DNA of 64,000 nt from Prosthecobacter vanneervenii. GTDB taxonomy: Bacteria; Verrucomicrobiota; Verrucomicrobiia; Verrucomicrobiales; Verrucomicrobiaceae. The notes under the pieces were generated by a model. That model worked only from the letters and a program-made list of their open reading frames with translations. It did no database searches and was not told the origin of the DNA. The position numbers were made by a program, and so were the translations under genes. Shown here in pieces: positions 3,257 through 45,811 of this stretch (positions are counted from its first letter, which is position 1; every line of letters starts with the position of its first letter). The stretch is taken from the NCBI RefSeq assembly GCF_014203095.1, contig NZ_JACHIG010000011.1:1-64000 (forward strand), read 5' to 3'.

Positions 3257-3282
3257 TTGTCAATTATTTGCACCCTGACCCC
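3257..3282 (-). repeat. Third copy of the RAYT-type repeat
   Basis: Exact reverse complement of the 26 bases at 1209-1234, and a direct repeat of 2336-2361. No transposase gene is attached, as expected of a repeat mobilised in trans. Confidence 0.85.
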
Positions 3283-3338: not shown

Positions 3339-3380
3339 CGGGGCAGGGTGGAATGACACTTACTTAGCATCATAAGCGGC
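3339..3380 (-). repeat. IS-end-like repeat, copy 2 (inverted)
   Basis: Read on the minus strand it starts GCCGCTTATGATGCTAAGTA and matches 2667-2710 apart from about three positions. With copy 1 it frames a segment of about 700 bp containing the zinc-ribbon gene. Confidence 0.7.
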
Positions 3381-14751: not shown

Positions 14752-15163
14752 GGTGGGTGGGTAAAATGCCGGAATGCGGTCATGACGCAAACGAGAAGCC
14801 GCTGGGGTAGGCACTGATTTACACCGCGAGAGATTAGACCAGTTCTCGAAAAGCCTGTCACATTGCCCGAGCGGCGGAGCGGCCCCATTGGCTGCGTTGG
14901 TCGCTTGCCTGTTATTTTTATATAGCAGGCGGCGCTCCCGCCTTGCCACTGGGGCCGCTGCGCTCGCCGGTTCCATCGGACATTCTTTTCGAGAACAGGT
15001 CTAGAAGACCGCAGAGAATGCTTTTTGAATCAAGGCTTTGCGATTCTTCATGTTGAGGTACGTGGTTTTTTTTCAGCGGTTCCCTCTTGGAGTGGGGGTG
15101 GGCTGACAAGTTTCTTACATGGTTCTTGCCGAAAAGAGACAAAGTGTTAAAATTCGATTTAAT
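14752..15163. other. Intergenic region between divergent genes, carrying a repeat element
   Basis: No gene is supported. The divergent promoters of ispG and the receiver gene must lie here. Their most likely places are the two flanks of the family B element (14836-15002), for example the AT-rich stretch at 15138-15163 before the receiver gene. Confidence 0.5.
14836..15002. mobile_element. Intergenic inverted-end element, family B copy 1
   Basis: About 167 bp. The 17-bp ends AGACCAGTTCTCGAAAA (14836-14852) and TTTTCGAGAACAGGTCT (14986-15002) are inverted repeats with one mismatch. The interior aligns with the element at 26412-26545, but carries about 30 extra bases containing a small hairpin (GCCTG, AT-rich loop, CAGGC). 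No coding capacity. The copy lies between two divergent genes. Confidence 0.65.
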
Positions 15164-15586
15164 ATGGCAAATATTGTGATTATCGAGGATCATCAACCGG
15201 TCCTGAAGCTTCTTTCCTCTCTCTGCCAAGCGGAAGGGCATGATGTGATGGCCTTGGACAATGGGCGTGCTGGAATGGCGGCGATCCGCGAGATGACGCC
15301 GGATGTGGCGCTGATGGACCGGCGGCTGGGCGATCTGGACGGGCTGGAGATGATCCGAGAGGCGCGTGAGGCCTCGCCAAACACACGGTTTGTGATGGTG
15401 TCTGCATGCAGTGACACGCGGGACATTGTGACGGCGGTGAGGCGTGGTTTTTGTGACTATGTGACGAAGCCCTTTGAGCCTTCGGAGATCAAGGATGCGG
15501 TGAACCGAGCGCTGACGGAACCGGCAGAACCGGCACCGATTTCACGGCAGAAGCTGGTGATCTTGTGTCCGAAGCAGGCGGCGTGA
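15164..15586 (+). CDS. Single-domain response regulator
   Basis: A 140-residue receiver protein. The acidic pair is E8-D9 (IIEDHQ), the phospho-acceptor is D52 (ALMDRRLGD), the signalling Ser is S80 (MVSAC) and the lysine is K102 (VTKPF). About 20 residues follow the receiver fold, too few for an output domain, so it acts through protein contacts, like CheY or Spo0F. No histidine kinase is nearby. The ATG at 15164 places the start just before the first strand; the longer frame adds a polar, unconserved N-terminus. The HtrA-type protease follows on the same strand 63 bp on. Confidence 0.88.
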   Translation: MANIVIIEDHQPVLKLLSSLCQAEGHDVMALDNGRAGMAAIREMTPDVALMDRRLGDLDGLEMIREAREASPNTRFVMVSACSDTRDIVTAVRRGFCDYVTKPFEPSEIKDAVNRALTEPAEPAPISRQKLVILCPKQAA

Positions 15587-15649
15587 GGAGAGAGTGGTCA
15601 GGAGTACTTTGACCGTTGAAGTTGGGAAGCGCTGGCGCATTGGTACTGC

Positions 15650-16855
15650 ATGGAGAACCTCCGTCGTCTGCTTTTTGCCTTTTCTGTGTTTGTGCTCTCG
15701 GCGCTGCTGTTTTCGTGGTGGCGGCAGGGCAAGGATGGGTATGGGGTGATGAACCTGCTGAAGAGCGAGAAGCCCGGGCCGACGACCCTGACGACGCCGA
15801 GCAAGCCGAAGATCGGCCCGAATGAACTGCCGCTTCTGGCACAGATGAATGATGAGTTTGCGAAGCTCTCGGCGGCGGTCCAGCCTGCGGTGGTGAGTGT
15901 GACGGCGAAGACGGTGCGGCGGGGACCGGTGAGCTGGCATCCGCTGTTTGGCAACATTGGCCAGCGTGCGCAGATCGTGCCGAGCCTGGGCTCAGGGGGT
16001 ATCATCAGCAAGGAGGGGCATGTGATCACGAACTATCATGTGATCGAGGGAGCGCTGCTTTCGGAGATGGAGATAGCGACGAATGACAACAAGAAATATC
16101 CGGCGTTGGTGCTGGGATTTAACAAGGAGCGAGACATTGCGCTGCTGAAAATTGACAGCCCGCGGGCGGACTTTCCGGCGCTGACCTTTGCCAATTCGGA
16201 TGAAGTGCGGGTGGGGGAGATCGTCATGGCGGTGGGCAATCCGTTTGGACTGAGCGGCACGGTGACGAAGGGCATTATCAGCGCGCGGGACCGGCATCTG
16301 AGCGACAGCCAGTTTGACTACCTGCAGACGGACACGGTGATCAATCCGGGGAACTCCGGGGGACCGCTGGTGAACATCCGGGGCGAGATCATCGGGATCA
16401 ACGTGGCGATCTATCGTGGCGATGCGAACATCACGAGCTGGCAGGGGGTGGGGCTGGCGATCCCCTCGAACGAGGCGAAGATGGTCGTGGAGGAGATTCA
16501 GAAGAAGATCAAGGAAAGCGCCAAGCAGGACAAGGGGGTGACGACGGCGACGGGTAAGGGGTACCTGGGACTGGAGGTGAGCAGCGAGCCTGTGGAGATC
16601 GATCCAGTGTGGGGGACATCGAGGCGTGGGGCGCTAATCACGGACATCGCGCCGAATTCGCCAGCGGATGAAGCCGGGCTGAGGCAGGGGGATGTGGTGA
16701 CGAAGTTTCAGGGCATGGCATTTCGGTCGCCAGCGGACCTGCTGCAGATCATCCGCACGCAGCCGCCGGGCAATGAAGTGAAGCTGGAGGTGATCCGGAA
16801 CAACAAGATGGGGGACATCATCGCGAGGCTGGGATCGAGGCCGGATGCGGGGTGA
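15650..16855 (+). CDS. HtrA/DegP-type serine protease with PDZ domain
   Basis: A 401-residue envelope protease. An uncleaved-looking N-terminal membrane segment (LLFAFSVFVLSALLFSWW) anchors it, followed by a Pro/Thr-rich linker. The S1C trypsin fold has its triad: H130 (TNYHVIEG), D162 (ERDIALLKID) and S236 (NPGNSGGPLVN). One PDZ domain lies at about 310-395 (GALITDIAPNSPADEAGL). Such proteins degrade or refold damaged periplasmic proteins and may also take part in signalling cascades. The membrane anchor plus single PDZ resembles DegS more than DegP. Its neighbour is an orphan receiver, with no proof of a functional link. Confidence 0.92.
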   Translation: MENLRRLLFAFSVFVLSALLFSWWRQGKDGYGVMNLLKSEKPGPTTLTTPSKPKIGPNELPLLAQMNDEFAKLSAAVQPAVVSVTAKTVRRGPVSWHPLFGNIGQRAQIVPSLGSGGIISKEGHVITNYHVIEGALLSEMEIATNDNKKYPALVLGFNKERDIALLKIDSPRADFPALTFANSDEVRVGEIVMAVGNPFGLSGTVTKGIISARDRHLSDSQFDYLQTDTVINPGNSGGPLVNIRGEIIGINVAIYRGDANITSWQGVGLAIPSNEAKMVVEEIQKKIKESAKQDKGVTTATGKGYLGLEVSSEPVEIDPVWGTSRRGALITDIAPNSPADEAGLRQGDVVTKFQGMAFRSPADLLQIIRTQPPGNEVKLEVIRNNKMGDIIARLGSRPDAG

Positions 16856-17151
16856 GAGGGGGGCAAGGGGCTGCGGTGCATCTCCTGCGCTCCTTCAGAG
16901 CGCGAGCTTGGGTGGGAGATGGTGTGCGTGCGCGAACCCAGGGCTTGCTCGTTCCTCGCAGCGCCCAGGGCTGAGTCCTGCGGGCCTTTGGCCCGCGAAA
17001 CACTCCATGGTGTGTTGGAAAATGGTCTGCTTATGGAGTGAGAGTGTGTGAGGATGCGCGGGCAGGCTGGACGGTGCGGGCGTGTGTGGGATCGGGACGA
17101 TCCCACTCCTCCTGAAGGAGAGGTATTGGCTACGATTATTTTTAAAACGAG
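16856..17151. repeat. Hairpin-rich intergenic repeat, family A-like
   Basis: No gene is supported. The stretch at 16880-16905 (CTCCTGCGCTCCTTCAGAGC) and the one around 16960-16995 (CCCAGGGCTGAGTCCTGCGG, then GCCTTTGGC) match the interior of the element at 8710-8976. One possible end, TTGGAAAATGGTCTGC, is near 17017. The second end is not visible, so this may be a truncated copy. Confidence 0.55.
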
Positions 17152-19533
17152 CTAGGGGCGTGGTTTGAGGGTGAGGTGCTGGTGGGTGCGATGGGTGGAG
17201 ATTTGGAGCTGGGCGGGGGTGAATTCGAGGTCGATGCCGCCAGTGAGCCAGGTGTCCAGGTGGGGAATGTTTTGGGCTTTGGCGTGATCTGCAACGGTGG
17301 TGGAGGGGGCGGTCTGGGTGGCGCGTGCGTCGCTGCTGGAGAGGATAAGCTGTGGTGAGGCTTTGAGGAGGAACTCCGGGGAGGTGGCCTGGTCGAGCTC
17401 GTGCTGGCTGCGGATGAGGACATCGCAGCGGAGATCGGCGGAGCTGGAGCAGAGGGTTTTCTCGGTGGACCATCCGGCATCGCTGAGCCAGAGGACGCGC
17501 CAGGGGCCTAGGTGGAGCATGAGGACCATGGCGCGGTCGTCACCGCGCTGGCTCTGGATTTCTGCGGACGGGTAGAGGACACGGACGTGCGCCTTAAAGT
17601 CAGCGGTGTGCGAGAGAGGGATGAGGTCTCCCGCTACGAGCCGGTGGATTGTGGGCGAGCCGGGTTGGGCGAGGAGCTGGCGCAGTGTGGAGGAGGGAGA
17701 AGCGCGCTTTACGGGCTCGAGTGCGCTGCAGTATAACTGCGGCTGATGAAATGCGGTGAGGACTTTGGAGATGGCGCCGATGTGGTCGGCATCGTCATGA
17801 CTGAGGAAGACGCCTTCCAATGAGTTGACGCCGCTGGTGTGGAGGCAGGGGCGGAGGACGCGCTGGAAGCTGGAGTCAGCGCCGGTATCGAGCAGCCAGT
17901 GGCGACGGCCGATGCGGAGGTGATTGGCGGCGCCGCCGAAGGGAAGCTCGAGCACGTGGAGCGTGGCGGGAGCATGAGGAAGAACGGACGCAGGGGTGAA
18001 GTGGATGTTTGCCCCCGGAAGACTGGCGAACCAGGCGGCGCTGAGGGTCATGGCCTTGGCGAGCGCCCAGTTGGCGTTGTTGAGGATGATCTGGGCGCCG
18101 CTGAGATGAAGAGTGGCGGCGCAGAGGCTCATGCAGGTGGCGGCGAGGCAGAAGGTGGAGAGGGGGACGAGGACACAGTTGGCGAGGACTGCGACGGGAG
18201 TGACCGATTGAAAGTGGGCGAGGATGAAAGGCAGGCTGCCAAGCCAGGCGGCGACGGAGACGCTGACAATCTCTGCGAAACGCAGACGGCACCAGCTCCA
18301 GGCGCGCTGGTGCCATGAGGCGAGCTGGGGTGGGAGAAAGGGATCGAGCCGAGTGAAGGGCAGCAGCTTTTCCAGCAGAGGAGCGGAGCCGATGGAGCTG
18401 AACCAGAGCACGCCGAAGGAAAGCTGGAAGCCGGGCATGAAGAGCTGGTTTGAGTCTGTGCCGAGAAGGAGCAGGGCGGCGGCACCGAGGCTGTTTTGAA
18501 GCGAGGCCTCGCGGTCCACGAGCGTGGCGCTGAGAAAGATGGCGACCATGAAGGCGGCGCGCGCTGCGGAAGGCCGCCAGCCCGTGACGAAGGCATAAGC
18601 AAAGACGATGAGGATGGCGAGCCAGAGGGCGAGGCCGCGACGAATGCCGAGCTGTTTCAGCAGCAAGAGAGCGATGACGCCAAGCAGGCCGACCTGCATG
18701 CCGCTGACGGCAAAGACGTGAAGCGTGCCGCTGCTGCGAAAGGCCTCCTCGATTTCATCATCGGCATCTGCCGACATGCCGAGGGCCATGGCACGGAGGA
18801 CGGCCACCATTTGAGGGTCCTCCTCAAGATCCAAAGCGAGCTGAGAGCTGATCCAGCGCCTGCAGGCCTCGGCTTTATCGAGAAAGGAGCACCAGAGAGT
18901 TTCGCCACCGCTGATGCTGATGCGCTGCATGTGGGTGACATCGAGCCGGGCCACACGGCCCATGAGGAGGGAGTAGGTCTGAGCATCGAAAGCGCCAGGA
19001 TTGGAGGCAGTGCGCGGCAACTGGAGAGTGCCGTGGATCTCATAGATACCGGGGCCGGGGAAGAGCACGCCTTTGGGAAGCCGCACGAGGAGCGTGGCCG
19101 GCTGATGCATCGAGAGGCCGATGGCGGGAGCCTCGATTTTTTGAGAGATGCAGAGAGCATGGGCGCGCTCGTCCGCGGTGTTGTCATACTCCGGCAAAAG
19201 GCTGCCACGAATGACGGCCTGCACGGGCCGGGACTGATGCTGCAAAGCGAGGCGGAGCGGGTGGCGGAAGGTTTCCTCTGTGCGAGTGGTGTGGATGAAG
19301 GCGAAGACCAGCAGGCAAGCGGGAAGCAGCAGCCATGAACGTCCGCGAAGCAGGGCCGCACCCAGCAGCACAAGAGAAGCGGCCGGCAGCCAGGACGAAA
19401 GCGAGTGCAGCCAGCCTGCGTCAGCGATGATGATGCCAGATGCCGCCGCCAGCGCCAGGACGAGCAGAGGATTAGCCTGAGACCAGCGCAGCGTTTTGTC
19501 CTGCAAGGACTGCGGAACTGAGGGGAGTCTCAC
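17152..19533 (-). CDS. comEC: ComEC/Rec2 family DNA-uptake channel protein
   Basis: A 793-residue membrane protein of the ComEC/Rec2 family, which carries single-stranded DNA across the inner membrane during natural transformation. It has an N-terminal DUF4131-type region with hydrophobic segments, a central competence domain (about residues 220-500) with many membrane helices (FAVSGMQVGLLGVIALLLLK), and a C-terminal metallo-beta-lactamase domain with VFLSHDDADHIGAI. The start is the GTG at 19533, which overlaps the stop codon of the TPR gene as GTGA, giving strong coupling. The ATG further upstream is translated TPR-gene DNA in another frame. No comEA or pilus genes are in the window. Confidence 0.9.
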   Translation of the reverse strand: MRLPSVPQSLQDKTLRWSQANPLLVLALAAASGIIIADAGWLHSLSSWLPAASLVLLGAALLRGRSWLLLPACLLVFAFIHTTRTEETFRHPLRLALQHQSRPVQAVIRGSLLPEYDNTADERAHALCISQKIEAPAIGLSMHQPATLLVRLPKGVLFPGPGIYEIHGTLQLPRTASNPGAFDAQTYSLLMGRVARLDVTHMQRISISGGETLWCSFLDKAEACRRWISSQLALDLEEDPQMVAVLRAMALGMSADADDEIEEAFRSSGTLHVFAVSGMQVGLLGVIALLLLKQLGIRRGLALWLAILIVFAYAFVTGWRPSAARAAFMVAIFLSATLVDREASLQNSLGAAALLLLGTDSNQLFMPGFQLSFGVLWFSSIGSAPLLEKLLPFTRLDPFLPPQLASWHQRAWSWCRLRFAEIVSVSVAAWLGSLPFILAHFQSVTPVAVLANCVLVPLSTFCLAATCMSLCAATLHLSGAQIILNNANWALAKAMTLSAAWFASLPGANIHFTPASVLPHAPATLHVLELPFGGAANHLRIGRRHWLLDTGADSSFQRVLRPCLHTSGVNSLEGVFLSHDDADHIGAISKVLTAFHQPQLYCSALEPVKRASPSSTLRQLLAQPGSPTIHRLVAGDLIPLSHTADFKAHVRVLYPSAEIQSQRGDDRAMVLMLHLGPWRVLWLSDAGWSTEKTLCSSSADLRCDVLIRSQHELDQATSPEFLLKASPQLILSSSDARATQTAPSTTVADHAKAQNIPHLDTWLTGGIDLEFTPAQLQISTHRTHQHLTLKPRP

Positions 19534-20180
19534 AGTTTCGCAGCCGCTGAAGCCGCATTTTTGGAGCGCTGATCGACGAGCATCTTGTACTGAATCTGCT
19601 CGATTTCGCTGATGCGGTGGTGGGCGTTGGCGCTGTGGCGGGTGTTTGGGAAATTGCCGATGACCTGTTCCAGCATATCGCGTGCGGTGTCGTAATCGTG
19701 GAGGTGGGTGATGTGGACGTCGGCGATGCGGAACATGATGAAGGCGGCATCGTCGACGGGCCAATCCTTGCTCTGCAGATGGTCCTCAAGAGCCTTGAGG
19801 GCGGACTGGGGATCGCGGAGGCGCTCGGCATACACCTTGGCGATTTCAGCGACGGGGAAGGGATCGTCGGGCTTGTCCTCGAGCATCTTTTCGTAATGCT
19901 CGATGGCACCCTGGTAGTCGCCTTGAGCGATGCTGGCGGCGGCCTTGGTCATTTCGTCCTGCTCCGTTCTTTCGCCGGAGGAGAAGACGGATTCACTGAC
20001 GGCATCCCCAAGCATGGGGATGAGGTATTTCACGGCGAGGATTCCGCCGGTCAAGCCGAGCAGAATCACAAACACGAGCTTCATTCCATCTCCTGCGTCT
20101 TTGACCATATTCCAGAGGAGGGCAATGATCAGAAGCGCAAGCGCAGCGACACCAATACGGACAATGAGTTGAGTGTTCAT
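19530..20180 (-). CDS. TPR-repeat membrane protein
   Basis: A 216-residue protein with two N-terminal membrane segments (IVRIGVAALALLIIALLW and LVFVILLGLTGGILAVKYLI). A TPR-like region follows at about residues 75-190, with pairs such as GDYQGAIEHYEKMLEDKPDD and the closely spaced YDTARDMLEQVI. Such proteins usually scaffold complexes at the membrane. It is translationally coupled to comEC by a 4-base GTGA overlap, so a role with DNA uptake is possible but not shown. I chose the ATG at 20180 because the homologous hydrophobic start begins there. Confidence 0.75.
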   Translation of the reverse strand: MNTQLIVRIGVAALALLIIALLWNMVKDAGDGMKLVFVILLGLTGGILAVKYLIPMLGDAVSESVFSSGERTEQDEMTKAAASIAQGDYQGAIEHYEKMLEDKPDDPFPVAEIAKVYAERLRDPQSALKALEDHLQSKDWPVDDAAFIMFRIADVHITHLHDYDTARDMLEQVIGNFPNTRHSANAHHRISEIEQIQYKMLVDQRSKNAASAAAKL

Positions 20181-20247
20181 GGTACGGGATGCAGGGAAGG
20201 CTATCAAACCGCCCGCGTTCCGCCAAGCATGAAATTTGGAGGGGGTG

Positions 20248-21684
20248 TCAGCCGCCGCCGAGGGCGCGGTAAAGGTTTGCCTGAACCTGGAACTGGCGCT
20301 TCATGACGCCGATGAGCTGGAGCCTGGCCTTGAGGGCGTTTTGCTGGGCATTGAGGACTTCGAGGTAGGTGGCGCGGCGGGTGCGGAAGAGGTCTGTGGC
20401 GGTGCTGACGGAGCCGATGAGGATCTGGACCTCCTTGCTCTTCAGAGCCTGCAGGTCTTTGAGAATGCGGATGAAGGCGAGCTGATTGTGGACTTCGACG
20501 TAGCCATTGACGATGGACTGCTGGTAGGCATTGAGGGCTTCGAGCTGCTGGGCATTGGCGTGATCAAACTCGGCCTGTATGGCGCGGCGATTGATCAGTG
20601 GAGCGACAAGGCCACCGACGGCGGAGTAGGTGGCGGAGTGAGCATTGAGAAGGAGATTACTGCGGAAGGCCTGGAGGCCGAGAACTCCATTGATGGAGAC
20701 CGAGGGGAGGAAGGCGGCGCGGGCCGCCTTTACATCTGCCTTGGCGGCGACGAGCTCGAATTCTGCGCGCCGGATGTCAGGGCGATTTTTGAGGAGGTCC
20801 GCTGGAACACTGGATGAGAGCTGAGGCAGGTGTGCGTCGTGAAGTGAGGTCCTGTTACGCATCACCGGTCTTTTGGGGTCTCCGAGCAGGCTGCAGATGA
20901 CACCCTCCTGCTGAACGATCTGCTGCTGGGTGTCGAGACGCATGCCCTGAAGGTTGTAGAGCAGGGCCTCGAACTGCTGGATGGCGAGTTCATTGGCAGC
21001 GCCGGCCTGCTTTTGAATCTGCACGGTTTCGAGGGCGTCTTTCTGAAGCTTGATGGTCTCGTCGATGTTAATGATCTCGGCGTCGAGGGCTACCAGCTCA
21101 TAATAGGCGGTGGCGAGCTCTGAGATGAGCTGAGTTTGGACGAGATTGCGGCCTTCGACCGTGGCGAGCATGCGGGCGGTGGCGGAGGATCTTTTGCTGC
21201 GGAGTTTTCCCCAGATGTCGAGCTCCCAACTGGACTGGAGGCCGACGGAGTAGTCCTGCAGATCCCGGGGAATGATGCGGCCATCGTAGATGGGCGAGGT
21301 GCTGTTGCCCGCGCCATCCATGGTGTAGAGGCCGAAGCGCTGGAGGCCAGCGCCAGCGGTGCCGGAGACCTTGGGAGCCAAGGCGCTGCGAGCGGCGGTG
21401 ATCTGGGCCTTGGCCATCTCGATGCGCTGGAGCGCGATCTTGAGGTCGCGATTGTTTTCGAGCGCCTTGTCGGTGAGAGACTGGAGGTGGGGATCTGTGA
21501 AGTGTCTGCGCCACTGACTGACGCCGGTGAAGGAGGCGGTCTTGTCGGGGGCCTGAGCGGCTGAGGGTGAGGTGGGGGATTTTTTGCCGAAGCGGCGGAA
21601 GTCCTCGCAACTGGTGCAGAACAGGGTGACGAACGAAATGCAGGCGCTGAAAAAAGGCCAGCTCAGATGCAGGGACTCACGCAT
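20248..21684 (-). CDS. RND efflux outer-membrane channel (TolC/OprM-NodT type)
   Basis: A 478-residue outer-membrane factor lipoprotein. The signal sequence ends at CTSC, giving a lipidation cysteine around residue 28. Two OEP repeats have the alternating helix pattern of TolC family members (GLQSSWELDIWGKLRSKRSS and AADV-type blocks such as VAAKADVKAARAAFLPSVSI). It forms the exit duct of the tripartite pump. The start at 21684 gives an 8-base overlap (ATGCGTGA) with the pump gene, so it is the last gene of the operon. The longer frame to 21729 is unlikely. Confidence 0.9.
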   Translation of the reverse strand: MRESLHLSWPFFSACISFVTLFCTSCEDFRRFGKKSPTSPSAAQAPDKTASFTGVSQWRRHFTDPHLQSLTDKALENNRDLKIALQRIEMAKAQITAARSALAPKVSGTAGAGLQRFGLYTMDGAGNSTSPIYDGRIIPRDLQDYSVGLQSSWELDIWGKLRSKRSSATARMLATVEGRNLVQTQLISELATAYYELVALDAEIINIDETIKLQKDALETVQIQKQAGAANELAIQQFEALLYNLQGMRLDTQQQIVQQEGVICSLLGDPKRPVMRNRTSLHDAHLPQLSSSVPADLLKNRPDIRRAEFELVAAKADVKAARAAFLPSVSINGVLGLQAFRSNLLLNAHSATYSAVGGLVAPLINRRAIQAEFDHANAQQLEALNAYQQSIVNGYVEVHNQLAFIRILKDLQALKSKEVQILIGSVSTATDLFRTRRATYLEVLNAQQNALKARLQLIGVMKRQFQVQANLYRALGGG

Positions 21685-24600
21685 GTTCCGGTTCCTTGGA
21701 GGGCTTGGGGGTTGAGGTGAAGGAGGCAAAGATGACGTAGAGGCCGGGGATGAGGAGCATGCCGAAGACGGTGCCGAAGATCATGCCGCCAACTGCGGAG
21801 GCGCCGATGGTGCGATTGCCTGCAGCGCCGACACCCGATGCCGCCATGAGGGGGCTGAGGCCGGCGACGAAGGCGAGAGAGGTCATGAGGATGGGGCGCA
21901 GGCGGGAGACGGCGCTCTCGACAGCGGCCTGCAGAGGGGTGAGACCTTCGCGCTGACGCTGGATGGCGAACTCGACGACGAGGATGGCATTTTTTCCGAG
22001 GAGGCCGATGAGCATGATCATGGAAACCTGGGCGTAGATATTGTTTTCCAGGCCCATCCAAAGAAGGAAGGCGAAGGCGCCGAGCAGGCCGGTGGGCAGA
22101 GAGAGGATGACGGGCAGGGGGAGCAGGAAGCTCTCATACTGCGCGGAGAGCAGCAGGTAGACGAAGGCAAGGCAGATGATGAAGATGAAGACGGCCTGAT
22201 TGCCGGCGAGAATCTGGTCGCGGGTGATGCCAGCCCAGTCGATGCCGAAGCCTTTGGGCAGCTTTTCACGGGCTGTCTCCTGAATGGCCTTGATGGCGGC
22301 GCCGCTGCTGAATCCGGCGGAGGGCTCGCCATTGATCTCGGCGGAGGTGAACATGTTGTAGCGGGTGATCTGATCCACGCCGTAGACTTTCTCCAGCTCC
22401 ACAAAAGTGGAGAGCTGGACCATCTCTCCGTGCTCGTTTTTGACGTGGAGCTTGAGGATGTCCTCAGGATGTGCGCGGTATTCAGGGAGGGCCTGAACCA
22501 TGACCTTGTAGAGCTGGCCGAAGCGGATGAAGTTGGTGGCGTACTTGCCGCCGAGGAGGGTCTGCAAGGTGCTCATGACATTGCTGGTGGTGACGCCTTT
22601 CTGGGCCGCGCGGTCATTGTCCACATGCACCATGTACTGCGGGAAGCTGGCGTCGAAACTGGTGAAGGCGTTGGCGATTTCAGGACGCGACTGGAGATCT
22701 GTGATGAACCTGGCGGCGACGCGCTCCATGTTTTTGAAGTCGCCGCTGCCGGTGCGGTCGAGGAGGCGGAGCTCGAAGCCGCTGGCGTTGCCGTAACCTG
22801 GAACCGCAGGCGGGGAGAAGAATTCGATTTTGGCGTCTTTGATGTGCTTGATCCTGCGGAGGAGCTCGTCCATGACCTGCCTGACGGACTCGGAGCGGTC
22901 GTGCCAGCCGGTGAGGTTGATGAGGCAGGAGCCGTAGGTGGAGCCGCTGGCATCTGTGATGATGTTGACGCCAGCGAGAGTGGAGACGGAGGATATGGCG
23001 GAGATGCCCTCGCAGGAGGCCTGGATCTCATCGATCACGGCCTTGGTACGCTCCAGGGTGGAGCCCGCAGGGGTGGTGACGCCGATGTAGAAGGCGCCCT
23101 GGTCTTCATTGGGAATGAAGCCGGAGGGAAGCCTGCCGCCTGCAAACACCATGAGGGCGCAGAAGCCGAGGAGGATGCCCCAGCTGATGGTGCGCCTGCC
23201 AGCGAGGGCGGTGATCCAACTGGAGTAAACGCCGGAGACTTTGTCGTAGCTGTGATTGAAGAGCTTGAAGAAGCGCCCCAGCAGGCCGCCGCCGCCGGAG
23301 GAGTGGTGGATGCTTTTGAGCATCAAGGCACAGAGGGCGGGCGTGAGGGTGAGAGCCACAACACCGGAGAGCACGATGGCGATGGCCATGGTGAGGGCGA
23401 ACTGCTGGTAAAAGATGCCCGAGGGGCCGGACATGAAGGAAGCGGGCACGAAGACGGCAGCCATGACCAGGGTGATGGCGATGATGGCGCCGCCAATCTC
23501 CTCCATGGCGGACTCGGTGGCCTCGCGGGGGCCAGCGCCGGAGGTTTCCATCTTGGCGTGAACGGCCTCGACCACGACGATGGCGCCGTCCACCACGATG
23601 CCGATGGCGAGGACGAGGGCGAGGAGGGTGATGAGGTTCAGAGAGAAGCCGAGCAACTGCATGAAGAAGAAGGTGCCGACGAGGGACACGGGGACGGCAA
23701 TGACAGGGATCAAGGTGGAGCGCCAGTCCTGGAGGAAGACAAAGGTGACGACGGAAACGAGGAGGAAGGCCTCTGCGAGGGTGCGAAAAACCTCATGCAG
23801 AGAGGCATCAAGGAAACGCGAGACGTCGTAGCTGATCTCGTAGTTCATGCCCTTGAGGAAGGTGGACTCTTTCAGCTCGGCCATGCGCTGCTTGATATTG
23901 GCGATGACCTCGTTGGCATTGGAGCCTGGGAGCTGCTTGAGGAGAATGGCGGCGGTGGGGCGGCCATTGAGCTTGGCCTCGACGTCAAAGTAGTTGGTGC
24001 TGAACTCGACATCGGCAACGTCCTTGATGCGGAGTACCTGGCCTTCATCCGTGGAGAGTATGGGGATCTTTTCGTAGTCCTCCTTGTTTCGATACTTGCC
24101 GGAGTAGCGGATGACGTACTGGAGGTGAGGCTCTGTCTTGTCGGAGCTTTCCCCGACCTTGCCGGGGGCGGCCTCGACATTCTGCTCCTTCAGCGCCGTG
24201 AGCACATCCTCCGCCGAGATGTTGTAGGCGAGCATATTGTCCGGCTTGAGCCAGATGCGCATGGCGTATTCGCGTGTGCCGAGGATGTCCACAAAGCCGA
24301 CGCCCTTGATGCGCTTGAGCTCTGTGAAAATATTGATGTCCGCAAAGTTGTAGAGGAACATCTCGTCGATGTCCGGATTGGTGCTGGTGATGTCGAGGTA
24401 CATCAGCATGGCCTTTTCTTCCTTGGCGATGCGGACGCCGGCCTTGATGATCTCCTCCGGGAGTTCGCCCATGACGGTGGCAACGCGGTTCTGGACATTG
24501 ACGGCGGCAACGTCGGGATCTGTGCCGACTTCAAAGACAACGGAGATGACGCCTACGCCGTCATTGGCGGCGCGGGAGGACATGTACTTCATGCGGGGGA

Positions 24601-24814
24601 CGCCATTGATGGAGCGCTCCAGGGGGACGATGGCCGCCTTTGTGAGCGTCTCGGCATTGGCACCGGTGTATTCCACGGTCACGTTCACCTCGGGAGGTGC
24701 GATGCTGGGAAACTGGGTGATGGGGAGCTGGAGGAGAGACAGGATGCCGAGGAAGGTGATGATGATGGAAATCACCATCGAGAGCACGGGTCTGCGGATG
24801 AACTCGCGAATCAT
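21677..24814 (-). CDS. RND multidrug efflux pump (HAE1/AcrB type)
   Basis: A 1045-residue inner-membrane transporter of the hydrophobe/amphiphile efflux class: 12 membrane helices, two large periplasmic loops and the usual duplication. The helix-4 proton relay reads VVDGAIVVVEA around residues 407-416. The first Asp (D409) is present, but the next position, Asp in AcrB (D408), is Gly here. The helix-10 lysine is kept in LLGKNAILVVEF. The operon order adaptor-pump-channel is complete. Drug, bile-salt or lipid substrates cannot be deduced. An unusual relay may change coupling rather than abolish it. Confidence 0.93.
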   Translation of the reverse strand: MIREFIRRPVLSMVISIIITFLGILSLLQLPITQFPSIAPPEVNVTVEYTGANAETLTKAAIVPLERSINGVPRMKYMSSRAANDGVGVISVVFEVGTDPDVAAVNVQNRVATVMGELPEEIIKAGVRIAKEEKAMLMYLDITSTNPDIDEMFLYNFADINIFTELKRIKGVGFVDILGTREYAMRIWLKPDNMLAYNISAEDVLTALKEQNVEAAPGKVGESSDKTEPHLQYVIRYSGKYRNKEDYEKIPILSTDEGQVLRIKDVADVEFSTNYFDVEAKLNGRPTAAILLKQLPGSNANEVIANIKQRMAELKESTFLKGMNYEISYDVSRFLDASLHEVFRTLAEAFLLVSVVTFVFLQDWRSTLIPVIAVPVSLVGTFFFMQLLGFSLNLITLLALVLAIGIVVDGAIVVVEAVHAKMETSGAGPREATESAMEEIGGAIIAITLVMAAVFVPASFMSGPSGIFYQQFALTMAIAIVLSGVVALTLTPALCALMLKSIHHSSGGGGLLGRFFKLFNHSYDKVSGVYSSWITALAGRRTISWGILLGFCALMVFAGGRLPSGFIPNEDQGAFYIGVTTPAGSTLERTKAVIDEIQASCEGISAISSVSTLAGVNIITDASGSTYGSCLINLTGWHDRSESVRQVMDELLRRIKHIKDAKIEFFSPPAVPGYGNASGFELRLLDRTGSGDFKNMERVAARFITDLQSRPEIANAFTSFDASFPQYMVHVDNDRAAQKGVTTSNVMSTLQTLLGGKYATNFIRFGQLYKVMVQALPEYRAHPEDILKLHVKNEHGEMVQLSTFVELEKVYGVDQITRYNMFTSAEINGEPSAGFSSGAAIKAIQETAREKLPKGFGIDWAGITRDQILAGNQAVFIFIICLAFVYLLLSAQYESFLLPLPVILSLPTGLLGAFAFLLWMGLENNIYAQVSMIMLIGLLGKNAILVVEFAIQRQREGLTPLQAAVESAVSRLRPILMTSLAFVAGLSPLMAASGVGAAGNRTIGASAVGGMIFGTVFGMLLIPGLYVIFASFTSTPKPSKEPEHA

Positions 24815-24925
24815 TCAGAGGCGTCTGGTTGGTCGGTTGGGTGCATGGAGCCAGAAGCCGGATGCGGAGGAGGTCCGCATCGTCCGTTTACACGCCCGGC
24901 TATCCGTTGGGGTTGGGGGCATCTG

Positions 24926-26068
24926 TCAGAAGGGCGCCACTTCAGCGAGCGCCTTGAAGTCGGGTGCGATCACCTCGCCTTCCTTGACCACCTGAATGCC
25001 CTCAAAGATGATGCGGTCGCTGGGCTTGAGGCCGGAGTCGATGACGTAGTGGTTTTGGAGGCGGAGCTTTGTGCCGATGCTGCGGAGTTCGATGCTGTTC
25101 TCCGGAGTGAGGGCAAAGACGCAGGTTTTGTGCTGGACCTCGAAGGTGCATTTCTGCGGGATGACGAGCGCGTTTTTGAGCTCTGAGCGCAGGATGACCT
25201 TGCCGGTGGAGCCATGCTTGAGGAGGTGCTCTGGGTTGGGGAAGCTAGCGCGGAAGGCGATGTTTCCAGTGCTTTTGGAGATGACGCTTTCCCAGGTCTC
25301 GATCCTGCCCTGATGAGGGTGGATTTCGCCATTGGCGAGTTCGAGCATGACGCTGCCCTGTTCGCCGAGATCGCGGCGCTTGGCGAGTTCAAGGTATTCG
25401 CGCTCGGAGACATTGAAGTAGGCGTAAACGTCTCCGTCATTGGAGATGGAGGTGAGGAGATCGCCTTCTGCGATGAGGCTGCCAGTCTTGCTGCGGATGC
25501 GGTTGATGATGCCGTCAAACGGGGCGCGGACTTCGGCATAGGAGAGTCTGCGCTCGGCATCGGCGACAGTGGTGAGAGCTTCGTCCACCCTGGCCATGGC
25601 AGAATCGAGCTTGGCCTTGGACATTTCCCATTCGGAGAGGGAGATGATTTTTTTGTCGAGGAGAAGCTGGTTATTCTGAAGGTCGATCTCGGCCATCTTG
25701 GCCTCAGCCTGGGCCCCCTTGAGACGGGCATTGGCGCGCTTGACCTCCTCCTGATACTCGTGGCTGCTGATAGTGAAGAGAAGCTGTCCGGTGGTGACGC
25801 GCTGGCCTTCATCGGCAGATACTTTTTCCAGGCGGCCGCTGACGCGGGCACGGAGCTCGATGAAATTGGAATTCTGAATACTGGCCACGTACTCCTGGCC
25901 GTGAGGGACATCCATGACCACGGCGGAGGTGACCGGGTATGATTTGCTGGGAGGCGGGGCGACTGCGGTTTTGTCTTCACCGCAGGAAGCCAAGGAGAGG
26001 AGGAGCGAGAGAGAGGCGACCGCTTTCAATCCGGCACATTTGTCGAGTACGTCTTTATATGAGGTCAT
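24926..26068 (-). CDS. RND efflux periplasmic adaptor (AcrA/MexA type)
   Basis: A 380-residue membrane-fusion lipoprotein. The signal ends at SLASCGED with the lipidation Cys near residue 29. The lipoyl-like and barrel-sandwich region (DVPHGQEYVASIQNSNFIEL, then LRARVSGRLEKV) flanks an alpha-hairpin (about residues 100-170), and beta-barrel and membrane-proximal domains follow. It bridges the pump and the outer channel. The three genes run in the order adaptor, pump, channel from one upstream region that carries a 27-bp palindrome. The start at 26068 is the first ATG before the signal peptide. Confidence 0.92.
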   Translation of the reverse strand: MTSYKDVLDKCAGLKAVASLSLLLSLASCGEDKTAVAPPPSKSYPVTSAVVMDVPHGQEYVASIQNSNFIELRARVSGRLEKVSADEGQRVTTGQLLFTISSHEYQEEVKRANARLKGAQAEAKMAEIDLQNNQLLLDKKIISLSEWEMSKAKLDSAMARVDEALTTVADAERRLSYAEVRAPFDGIINRIRSKTGSLIAEGDLLTSISNDGDVYAYFNVSEREYLELAKRRDLGEQGSVMLELANGEIHPHQGRIETWESVISKSTGNIAFRASFPNPEHLLKHGSTGKVILRSELKNALVIPQKCTFEVQHKTCVFALTPENSIELRSIGTKLRLQNHYVIDSGLKPSDRIIFEGIQVVKEGEVIAPDFKALAEVAPF

Positions 26069-26219
26069 GAGATTTGAGCATGAGCATGTGATGTGCCATT
26101 TCTATACGGGCGGGGCGATGCATAGGTAGAACGCCTTCTTTGGAGAAAGGCGGTGGAAGTTTGTAATGGCCGGTGGTTATAAATCGGCCTGAGATTGTTG
26201 GTTCCGCTTGGGTTTGGGG

Positions 26220-26246
26220 TTAAACTATTGTATATGAATAGTTTAA
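26220..26246. promoter_or_regulatory. 27-bp palindrome, likely operator
   Basis: TTAAACTATT, seven bases, AATAGTTTAA: perfect 10-bp arms. It lies 152 bp upstream of the adaptor start. Size and symmetry fit TetR/AcrR- or MarR-type operators, which commonly control RND pumps. No such regulator gene lies within about 18 kb on either side. A transcriptional role is inference. Confidence 0.5.
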
Positions 26247-26367
26247 TTGGTTGTTTTGTGACAAAACACACCCTTTGATCGCTCTTATTTAGAGCGCGTA
26301 AAACCTGTAAATGAGGGCGGGTTGTAGTAATAAGCGCCACATTGTTTGCGTGAAAAGCACGCGTCAC

Positions 26368-26392
26368 AAAAAGTTCAGAAAATGAACTTTTT
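26368..26392. terminator. AT-rich hairpin with flanking T/A runs
   Basis: AAAAAGTTCA, loop GAAAA, TGAACTTTTT: perfect 10-bp arms with a T-run on both strands. On the minus strand it would terminate transcripts from the PQQ-propeller gene, whose stop is at about 26544. On the plus strand it has the same shape. It could instead be a second operator for the efflux operon. Confidence 0.5.
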
Positions 26393-26411
26393 TTCCGGGA
26401 ACTGGTATTTC

Positions 26412-26545
26412 TGACCAACTCTCAAATCTTGTCACCTAGCCGGATGGCGCAGCGGCCCGAGTGGCTGCATTCGTTGCTTCCGCCTTGCCATAGGGGGGAC
26501 GCTGCGCTCGCCGATTCAATCGACAATCTTTTCGAGGACAGGTCT
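26412..26545. mobile_element. Intergenic inverted-end element, family B copy 2
   Basis: About 134 bp, aligned with the copy at 14836-15002 but without its 30-bp hairpin insert. The right end TTTTCGAGGACAGGTCT is at 26529-26545, and the bases just past it complete the stop codon of the PQQ gene. The left end is more divergent (GACCAACTCTCAAA). Confidence 0.6.
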
Positions 26546-28025
26546 ATTCGCCGCGAAGATCCAGGCAGAGGACGCGGGAGTCGGACTTTCTGAGGAGGTC
26601 CTGTGACTGCTGGCGGACATAGAGCAGGCCGTGGCTGAGGGCGGGGAGGCTCCAGGTATTGAGGGCGTAGAAGAGCTGGGTCTGGGCGATGACTTTGGCT
26701 CCAGCGGGGCTGAGGTCGAGCCAGTGGAGGGAGCCGGTCTCGCCGAGGCAGAGGAAGGCGCCGTCTACCTTGAGAAGGCTGGCGCGGAGGATGCTGAGGC
26801 GGGTGGGATTGGAGCGGCCGGTCTGCTTGCTGAACTCTGAATCTTCCCACTCGATGTGCTGCTCCCAGACTTCGGCGCCGGTGTCTGCATTGACGCAGAC
26901 GAGGCGGGATTTGGGCTCTGTTTCGCCATCGATGGCGTAGAGATAGCCGTCGTGGTAAACGGGGTTCATCCAATGAACGCCGAGCTTTTTGGACTGCCAG
27001 ACTTCCTTGGCCTGGAAGTCGGCGTCATACTCGACCATGGCACCGCCAAGAGGGCGGCCTTTGGGGTAGGCGGTGGTGATGAAGGCGCGGTTTTTCCCGG
27101 GGATGACGACGGGTGAGGAGCCGATGGCCTGGATGTAGTCCTCGCTGCGCCAGGGGAATTTGGAGTGGAGCTTGCCCGAGGTGGGATCGATGCACATGAG
27201 GCCGCCGGTGGCGGGGTCGCTCTCGCCACCCGCGTAGATGAGGATCTTGGTCTGGCCGTGGAGCTGAGCGGGGACGGGAGAGGCGTAGCTGGCGCCCCAG
27301 GCGTCTTCGACGGTCCAGAGGATCTTGCCGCTGTGGAGGTCAAAAGCTGCGACGCTGACGCCTGCTTCGGCGAGGCGCTCTTTGCGGTCGCGCAGGCCCT
27401 CGGTGTCTTCGATGGGGGCTTTTTTGCCGCCGACATTGAGGATGACGCGGCCGTCGAGAATGAGGGGGGTGCCGCCTGCGCCGAAGAAGTCCTGCGGGAC
27501 GTGGTATTCGGAGCGGAGGTCGTGTTTCCAGAGCTCTTTGCCTGTTTTTAGATCGTAGGCGTGAAGCTCGGCGGTGACGCCGAAGGTGACAACGATGCCA
27601 TCGGCGATGACGGGGGAGCCGCGCGGGCCATTGCTGAAGCCATAGCGGTCCTGGTAGGAGACTGGGTAGTCGGCGGTCCAGAAGCGTTTGCCGGTTTCGC
27701 GATCAAGGCACTCGATGGTTTCTTTGCCAGCGAGGGCGTGGAAGAGCACGCAATAGCTGCCGCTGATGGCGGGGGAGTTGTAGGCATCGCCCATCTGGAC
27801 TTCCCAGAGGGTCTTGAGGCCGGATTGAGGCCAGGATTTGAGCAGATGGGTTTCGGGCGAGATGGCGTCGTGGGTGGGGCCGAGGACGCGGGGCCAGTCG
27901 CTGTTTTTGGCGGAGGCTGAAAGGGGCCTGGGGGCGGCGTGGGAGGTGAGGCGGTCAAAGCTCTCCTGTGCAGGGCAGAGGCGAAGGGCCAGAAGGAGGA
28001 GGAAGAGGATCGACGAGCGGTGCAT
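26544..28025 (-). CDS. Exported PQQ-like beta-propeller protein
   Basis: A 493-residue protein with a signal peptide (MHRSSILFLLLLALRLCPAQ) and a WD/PQQ-type beta-propeller. Blade signatures include VLFHALAGKETIECLDRETG, TGKRFWTADYPVS, LHAYDLKTGKELWKHDL and GLMCIDPTSGKL. These are typical of BamB-like and PQQ-dehydrogenase-like propellers common in Planctomycetota and Verrucomicrobiota, where most are not dehydrogenases. I do not assign a cofactor. The ATG at 28025 sits directly before the signal peptide. The last codon and the TAG stop lie at the edge of a repeat element. Confidence 0.8.
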   Translation of the reverse strand: MHRSSILFLLLLALRLCPAQESFDRLTSHAAPRPLSASAKNSDWPRVLGPTHDAISPETHLLKSWPQSGLKTLWEVQMGDAYNSPAISGSYCVLFHALAGKETIECLDRETGKRFWTADYPVSYQDRYGFSNGPRGSPVIADGIVVTFGVTAELHAYDLKTGKELWKHDLRSEYHVPQDFFGAGGTPLILDGRVILNVGGKKAPIEDTEGLRDRKERLAEAGVSVAAFDLHSGKILWTVEDAWGASYASPVPAQLHGQTKILIYAGGESDPATGGLMCIDPTSGKLHSKFPWRSEDYIQAIGSSPVVIPGKNRAFITTAYPKGRPLGGAMVEYDADFQAKEVWQSKKLGVHWMNPVYHDGYLYAIDGETEPKSRLVCVNADTGAEVWEQHIEWEDSEFSKQTGRSNPTRLSILRASLLKVDGAFLCLGETGSLHWLDLSPAGAKVIAQTQLFYALNTWSLPALSHGLLYVRQQSQDLLRKSDSRVLCLDLRGE

Positions 28026-28047
28026 TGGGTGGTAAGGTAATACAGCC

Positions 28048-28203
28048 ATGAAAACCGCCACTTTCATTCTTCTTGCGGCCAGTGTTTTGAGCTCGTGCAC
28101 CGGAGGAGGAAGCGGAGTGCCGGGCAAGGGGCAGGTGGCGAAGGATCAGACGGTGTTTTCGTGGCTGAGCACGACAGCGGTGACGCCGACGGTGGCGAGG
28201 TGA
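28048..28203 (+). CDS. Small lipoprotein
   Basis: A 51-residue protein. The leader KTATFILLAASVLSSC has a good lipobox (VLSSC) around residue 17, followed by a Gly/Ser-rich stretch and a short tail ending in TVAR. I do not recognise it. The start at 28048 is divergent from the PQQ gene, 22 bases away. The stop is just before the next gene, so the two probably share a message. It is small but has the expected export signals. Confidence 0.6.
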   Translation: MKTATFILLAASVLSSCTGGGSGVPGKGQVAKDQTVFSWLSTTAVTPTVAR

Positions 28204-45376: not shown

Positions 45377-45811
45377 TGGCAGGGAGGGGCGGATGTGTTA
45401 CCGCTGGCTCTCTCCTGCTGCGGGGTGGCGGGGTAACGCTGCTGGTGGACGCGGTGTTGGAAGAGGGCGATGGGTTTGCTTCCGAATTTGTGGGGCAGAA
45501 CCCAGGGCGGCGCTCGCCCAGGCTCGCTTGCCCTGGGCTATACTATGTCGCCCCTTTGGGGCTGGGGAGGCATAGTTAAAAGGGATGGCTCCGTGTTTGA
45601 TGGGGCGTGTGATTAGAAGGGAATGAACGCTGGATTCTGAGAGGGGGATGATGGTTTGTACATCAGCAGGCTTGCGAGCCGCACAGAGGATTGCCTTCGG
45701 CTGGCTTCGCGTTGTGCGGACCACTATGCTGGCGCCCTCGCGGGACATCGTTGTGCTTTTGATTATCGCTTTGACCCTTTGTCTCGTCGGATTCTATCAG
45801 TGCCTATTCTC
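45377..45811. repeat. Hairpin-rich intergenic repeat
   Basis: No gene is supported. Nested palindromes are present: CCCAGGGC/GCCCTGGG (45501-45508, 45530-45537), GCCCC-TTT-GGGGC (45550-45562) and outer ACTATG/CATAGT (45542-45547, 45571-45576). The stretch ACGCTGCTGGTGGACGCGGT near 45440 and the following GGGTTTGCTTCC match the interior of the element at 4494-4810. End motifs are not visible. Confidence 0.5.

Follow-up and report, generated by a model that had tools for sequence, protein, structure and literature searches.

Can a mobile element come to rest in the stop codon of a gene and leave the encoded protein as it was? This question is raised by a 64,000-nucleotide stretch of the Prosthecobacter vanneervenii genome (contig NZ_JACHIG010000011.1, positions 1 to 64,000; hereafter the window), which holds two copies of a short palindromic repeat. 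One end of the second copy coincides with the stop codon of a gene for a PQQ_2 (BamB-like) beta-propeller protein, and an earlier note on this DNA had proposed that the insertion changed the end of that protein. Our analysis points instead to a non-autonomous miniature inverted-repeat transposable element (MITE) of an IS630-family (Tc1/mariner-like) insertion sequence (IS), which lands in TA dinucleotides and rebuilds native stop codons in place; we put the probability of this reading at roughly 0.9.

The element and the end of the PQQ gene

The features on which the argument turns are the following.

14810..15058, + strand: a second dispersed repeat, which hosts the nested copy 1 and has empty copies elsewhere
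14835..15003, + strand: copy 1, a standard 169-bp MITE including the TA duplication, between ispG/gcpE and a response-regulator gene
14835..14859, + strand: left terminal inverted repeat of copy 1, 25 nt
14979..15003, - strand: right terminal inverted repeat of copy 1, 25 nt, 88% complementary to the left one
26412..26546, + strand: copy 2, an internally deleted MITE of 135 bp; its left end is that of the TAGACCAACTCTC subfamily less one base
26529..26546, - strand: gene-facing end of copy 2, TAGACCTGTCCTCGAAAA
26544..26546, - strand: TAG, made of the target-site TA and the element's first base G; stop codon of the PQQ gene
26544..28127, - strand: gene of the PQQ_2 (BamB-like) beta-propeller protein, ending in ...CLDLRGE and the stop

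The open reading frame at 26544-28127 scores as PQQ_2 and ends in GGC GAA TAG. Its TAG, at 26546-26544 on the minus strand, is in frame, as the earlier note had seen. A search for the protein covered 56 genomes and found it in 46, the own genome included; the best 30 loci were compared, 29 of them from other genomes. At 26 of these 29 loci the orthologue stops at exactly the same codon, be it TAA, TAG or TGA. The remaining three are longer, by one residue (L094, L095) or two (L088). None of the 29 loci has a pair of element ends; stray single end matches with 3-4 mismatches occur at eight of them, none at the stop, and the closest lies about 130 nt past it, in L088. With copy 2 taken out, the empty site would read GAA-TAG-AAATACC, on the assumption that the base missing from its left end was lost later. 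The element would thus have hit the TA of an existing stop codon and, its first base being G, rebuilt TAG; the end of the PQQ protein is unchanged.

The idea that the insertion created a new stop and altered the C terminus is very improbable. It draws on the fact that the TAG does belong to the element end, and on the three orthologues that run one or two residues further. The comparison of orthologues, which the earlier note had itself proposed as a possible refutation, refutes it for copy 2, where proteins without the element end at the same position; across the family, all 14 reconstructed empty sites were already stops.

That the repeat is an inserted mobile element is seen directly from empty sites. 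At four other places in the genome the host repeat runs ...AGAGATTAGAAGACC..., and the TA-element-TA of copy 1 is represented there by one TA. Relatives have orthologous empty sites for two further copies, L034 (three loci) and L046 (four loci); these match the sequence on either side of the element and lack the element together with one TA. These sites, from the own genome and from relatives, show that the MITE inserts into TA and duplicates it. Both flanking bases fit Y-TA-R (pyrimidine, TA, purine) at 37 of 63 insertion sites, against 231 of 1087 background TAs.

The host repeat itself (CACTGATTTAACACCGCGAGAGATTAGAAGACCGCAGAGAATGC...) gave 19 matches, four of which are halves of two MITE-filled copies. 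Besides the window copy at 14810-15058, it occurs in the own genome (G000) at C1:591765, C6:125188, C18:27077, C4:524251 and other places. A further copy, at C4:516438, carries the same MITE in the same place, with 245 bp at 94% identity including the flanks, apparently as the result of a joint duplication of host repeat and MITE.

The ends of the element read TAGACC(T/A)GTTCTCGAAAA, and the whole 169-bp, non-coding element is palindromic. A window search for the pattern TAGACCWGTTCTCGAAAA at up to three mismatches, for which shuffled sequences give an expected mean of 0.04 matches, returned both ends of copy 1 (14835-14852 on the plus strand and 14986-15003 on the minus strand, each without mismatch), the gene-facing end of copy 2 (26529-26546, minus strand, one mismatch) and a single further match at 473-490 with three mismatches. 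The left end of copy 2, TGACCAACTCTCAAA, was not recovered by this search; it equals the left end TAGACCAACTCTC of the subfamily represented by L049 and L051 minus one base. Near-perfect ends, which had been described for both copies, are therefore present at both ends of copy 1 and at the right end of copy 2, and absent from the left end of copy 2. Copy 1 folds as one long palindrome (z -10.7 against shuffles). Copy 2 alone folds weakly better than shuffles (z -1.5, with 14 of 200 shuffles equalling it), and its central stem-loop is missing, about 31 alignment columns being gone. The relation of the two had been read the other way round, as an extra hairpin in copy 1: copy 1 has the standard form, shared in length by 19 of 22 copies, and copy 2 is deleted.

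Both window copies are real, and the family is larger than the pair first described. Across the own genome (6.66 Mb) we found 52 matches to the end sequence at up to two mismatches, compared with none for a reversed-pattern control. At least 22 near-full-length copies, copy 1 included, are 86-100% identical to copy 1, and there are fragments in addition; 22 is a lower bound, since 40 of the 47 candidates from the search with copy 1 were scored. The three copies that are not 169 bp long measure 168 bp. The repeat is thus short and multicopy, has 25-nt terminal inverted repeats and lies below the length needed to encode a transposase, as expected of a MITE. In another genome, G016 (L190, L192, L193), a 167-bp form is accompanied by a longer one of 281 bp whose ends are the same. 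The alignment of the 167-bp form to copy 1 scores only about 110 bits, so interiors vary between genomes while the ends are kept.

A candidate parent in the same genome

A truncated relative in genome G010 has 839 bp between perfect ends and contains pieces of a DDE_3 transposase. A search with this element found an autonomous element in the P. vanneervenii genome itself (G000:C16). It is 1129 bp long, with ends TAGACCGGTTCTCAAAAAGAATGTCAT... (in pattern form TAGACCGGTTCTCA(A/G)AAA), and has a single intact open frame of 346 codons. The frame matches the NCBIfam IS630 family transposase NF033545 (202.5 bits, cut-off 100) and Pfam DDE_3, PF13358 (98.2 bits, cut-off 28.6), so that the element encodes a DDE transposase, as an IS630-type element does. 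Its outer 25-30 nt are 81-92% identical to the MITE ends, which places common ends on the MITE and on an autonomous element of the same genome. Three other Verrucomicrobia metagenome-assembled genomes contain between them four elements that have ends of this kind and measure 1129-1198 bp. The 1129-bp element is, on these sequence comparisons, the likely parent of the MITE. The shared ends, TAGACC(N)GTTCTC(G/A)AAAA, are most likely the recognition sequence of its transposase, which would move the 169-bp derivative in trans.

TA is seen at both ends of the IS itself, empty sites being known for the MITE only. None of six IS elements checked ends a frame scoring at least 25; one, L244, ends a weak frame of 137 codons with a score of 15.6.

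We also considered an IS5/IS4-type parent. The genome has two DUF4096 loci, L098 and L099, and element ends were read for L098, which carries DDE_Tnp_1; these ends, TAGAGCCTGTTATTAAC, correspond to only part of the MITE end, and this candidate was rejected.

Stop codons and gene 3' ends across the genus

To count insertions we examined 82 loci, of which 15 had no pair of ends. Four of the remaining 67 (L194, L197, L199 and L235) were set aside because they were doubtful or differed in length, giving 63 (22 from the own genome and 41 from elsewhere in the genus); the manual addition of copy 2 brought the total to 64. Own-genome fragments (L017, L053-L056) were excluded, and the loci represent the part of the end matches that was retrieved. 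Some copies share flanks and are not independent (L031/L039, L186/L187 and others), and none of the 13 stop cases among the 63 lies in these pairs.

An element end forms the TAG of a called gene in 14 of the 64 scored copies (8/23 in the own genome, 6/41 elsewhere). All 14 reconstructed empty sites hold TAA or TAG in frame, copy 2 on the assumption of one lost base. In the own genome, seven copies besides copy 2 provide a long frame of good score with its TAG; by eye, the products of several of these genes look like a methionine aminopeptidase, an ABC-F protein, an SNF2 helicase and a GDP-fucose synthase. We read 29-30 residues of each protein end at 34 orthologous loci of the seven genes in four close relatives, and none continues past the position of the stop. 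The 22 orthologues at L034, L035, L046 and L048 all share the stop position; the eight at L033 and L040 all end one codon sooner, as do three of the four at L038, the fourth ending four codons sooner. The comparison of orthologues covers these own-genome cases. For the six in other genomes (L178, L179, L189, L198, L208 and L218), native stops are present in the reconstructed sites. Copy 2 apart, 13 frames scoring at least 25 that run into an element end finish on its TAG, and four enter the element in another frame (L036, L039, L050 and L184; weakly in L039 and L050).

As background we took the tolerated TAs of the same loci, that is, those that are intergenic or in a stop codon (n = 1137). 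Stops account for 50 of them (4.4%), against 13 of 63 elements. With copy 2 the figure is 14/64 (P = 6e-7, or 3.6e-6 after Y-TA-R weighting); taken separately, the own genome gives P = 3.8e-6 and the other genomes P = 0.009. A background drawn from the window alone is similar, with 14 of 356 TAs in stops, the PQQ stop included. Copies are in 4.5-5.2-fold excess in the stop codon, at 0-10 nt and at 11-25 nt after it alike, and the excess drops to 1.4-1.7-fold at 26-200 nt. Gene 3' ends are preferred, and the stop codon as such is not. The stop codon as a target separate from the nucleotides just after it is not supported, its ratio to them matching the background.

Read plainly, these data would mean that insertions are tolerated at the 3' ends of genes, stop codons included, the latter owing to the G beside the TA. 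With G as the first inner base at either end, insertion into the TA of TAA or TAG, within the general preference for Y-TA-R and with duplication of the TA, would give TA plus G, hence TAG at the same codon. Insertions of this kind would leave the protein unaltered and so persist. The excess in and just after stops would then reflect tolerance, perhaps with some insertion preference added.

Several observations weigh against this account. Both the genes and the TA background were defined with a simple codon model of our own instead of an annotation. Within 100 nt of a stop, the codon itself is weakly over-represented (13/33 versus 50/206, P = 0.056), and in convergent regions the split between in-stop and 0-25 nt after is 9:7, much as in the background (53:40). 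The proteins at L033, L038 and L040 are 1-4 residues longer than their orthologues, a slight C-terminal drift. Not all insertions are harmless: L036 (G000:C4:133708-133876) interrupts a gene, by its look one for an FAD-dependent oxidoreductase, whose frame runs on for 245 codons through the reconstructed empty site. The TAG is intact at 14 of 14 gene-facing ends versus 93 of 114 other ends, a non-significant difference (P = 0.12) and partly true by definition. As to the parent, the link between transposase and MITE draws on end similarity, from which movement in trans would follow; beyond the ends, MITE and IS have no convincing common sequence, and the same holds for the G010 element.

Active targeting of gene 3' ends by the transposase, which would bring stop hits above the level set by tolerance, is possible but doubtful. 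Convergent regions, where no promoter is expected to be at risk, speak for it: there, 16 of 24 copies lie in a stop or within 25 nt after it, compared with 93 of 296 TAs in the background (P = 0.001). The steep fall of the excess beyond 25 nt fits as well. Selection against hitting terminators further downstream could yield the same shape, however, and the counts are small and the copies not all independent. The Y-TA-R preference explains little of the excess, raising the expected stop fraction from 4.4% to 5.1%. It is unlikely, on our estimate, that the IS630-type transposase of this Verrucomicrobia genus steers its MITEs to 3' ends, with the G next to the TA suiting the element to this niche as a self-healing landing that goes beyond mere tolerance. 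If the 3'-end bias did reflect targeting, the element would illustrate how a bacterial transposon of the Tc1/mariner type locates safe insertion sites where genes are densely packed.

We think it improbable that copies are retained at 3' ends because their hairpin aids the gene, through transcript end formation or RNA stability. The strong palindromic fold of copy 1 and the position of copies right behind stops would suit such a role. Copy 2, though, has no central stem-loop, and its fold is scarcely more stable than those of shuffles; a consensus scan of 26000-26700 found no terminator-like site; and orientation to the gene is inconsistent, the right end facing it in 8 of 13 cases and the left in 5. 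An orientation bias, which looked strong in the own genome, was rejected: there it is the right end that points towards the gene in copy 2 and in 6 of the 7 other cases, but elsewhere, judged on partial alignments, in 2 of 6.

Related repeats and neighbouring elements

Comparable repeats have been described in other bacteria. RUP, of 107 bp in Streptococcus pneumoniae, has been linked to IS630-Spn1 by its ends and TA target (PMC2229807); as described there, it resembles the MITE in being short and non-coding, in sharing the ends of a resident IS630 element and in using TA-containing targets. It differs in sequence, length and phylum, and stop-codon landing is not described for RUP in the portions of PMC2229807 and PMC3049150 available to us. 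Enterobacterial RU repeats likewise have TA at their ends and duplicate it, and both they and the Correia/NEMIS repeats are MITE-like, form stem-loops and lie near or fused to genes (PMC2229807, PMC2759123).

BOX elements are of modular build, with boxA, boxB and boxC. The closest precedent that we found for a repeat supplying stop codons is this pneumococcal element, which is the source of the stop in 36 of 58 overlapping coding sequences, without strong evidence of truncation (PMC3049150, in part). In the sections of that paper available to us, its ends are likened to ISSpn2, not IS630, and a rebuilt native stop is not described; the parallel is limited to the supply of stops. The same source reports an excess of BOX, RUP, SPRITE and IS elements between convergent genes. 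An RU-1 copy at the end of an amidase gene apparently removed the normal stop and lengthened the protein (PMC2759123, in part), whereas the MITE family of the window rebuilds the stop at the same codon. MITEAba12 of Acinetobacter is also short and has one copy that ends a gene, but there the protein is 398 residues shorter than in the comparison strain, and the element is compared with ISAba12 (PMC6382973, in part). Among the titles that our searches of open-licence papers listed, none describes IS630 MITEs that rebuild stop codons. We regard the element as a further IS630 MITE; what is added here is that stops are rebuilt in place, as empty sites and orthologues together indicate.

The PQQ gene offers a clear case of a transposon occupying a gene's stop codon without harm. 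For annotation, a stop codon supplied by a repeat should not be read as a changed protein unless the empty site is without a stop.

REP/BIME repeats moved by a Y1 transposase (RAYT) make no target duplication, and the same repeat flanks the transposase gene. That the element is of this type, or a structural RNA, can be dismissed despite its palindromic form and the presence elsewhere in the window of an IS200-like (Y1_Tnp) transposase gene flanked by repeats of its own: the TA duplication and clean empty sites, the ends shared with a DDE transposase element, the different sequence of the Y1-flanking repeats and the lack of any Rfam match at the element at gathering thresholds all argue against it.

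The IS200-like Y1_Tnp gene (1262-2323) is surrounded by a 24-nt repeat, GGGGTCAGGGTGCAAATAATTGAC, at 1209-1232, 2338-2361 and 3259-3282, one on the plus and two on the minus strand, by its look a REP/RAYT-type arrangement. Near this gene, a 41-nt inverted repeat lies at 2667-2707 and 3340-3380, its arms 93% complementary and 632 nt apart. Elsewhere in the window, at 45517-45563, Rfam matches the Acido-Lenti-1 RNA with 39.7 bits (gathering threshold 37).

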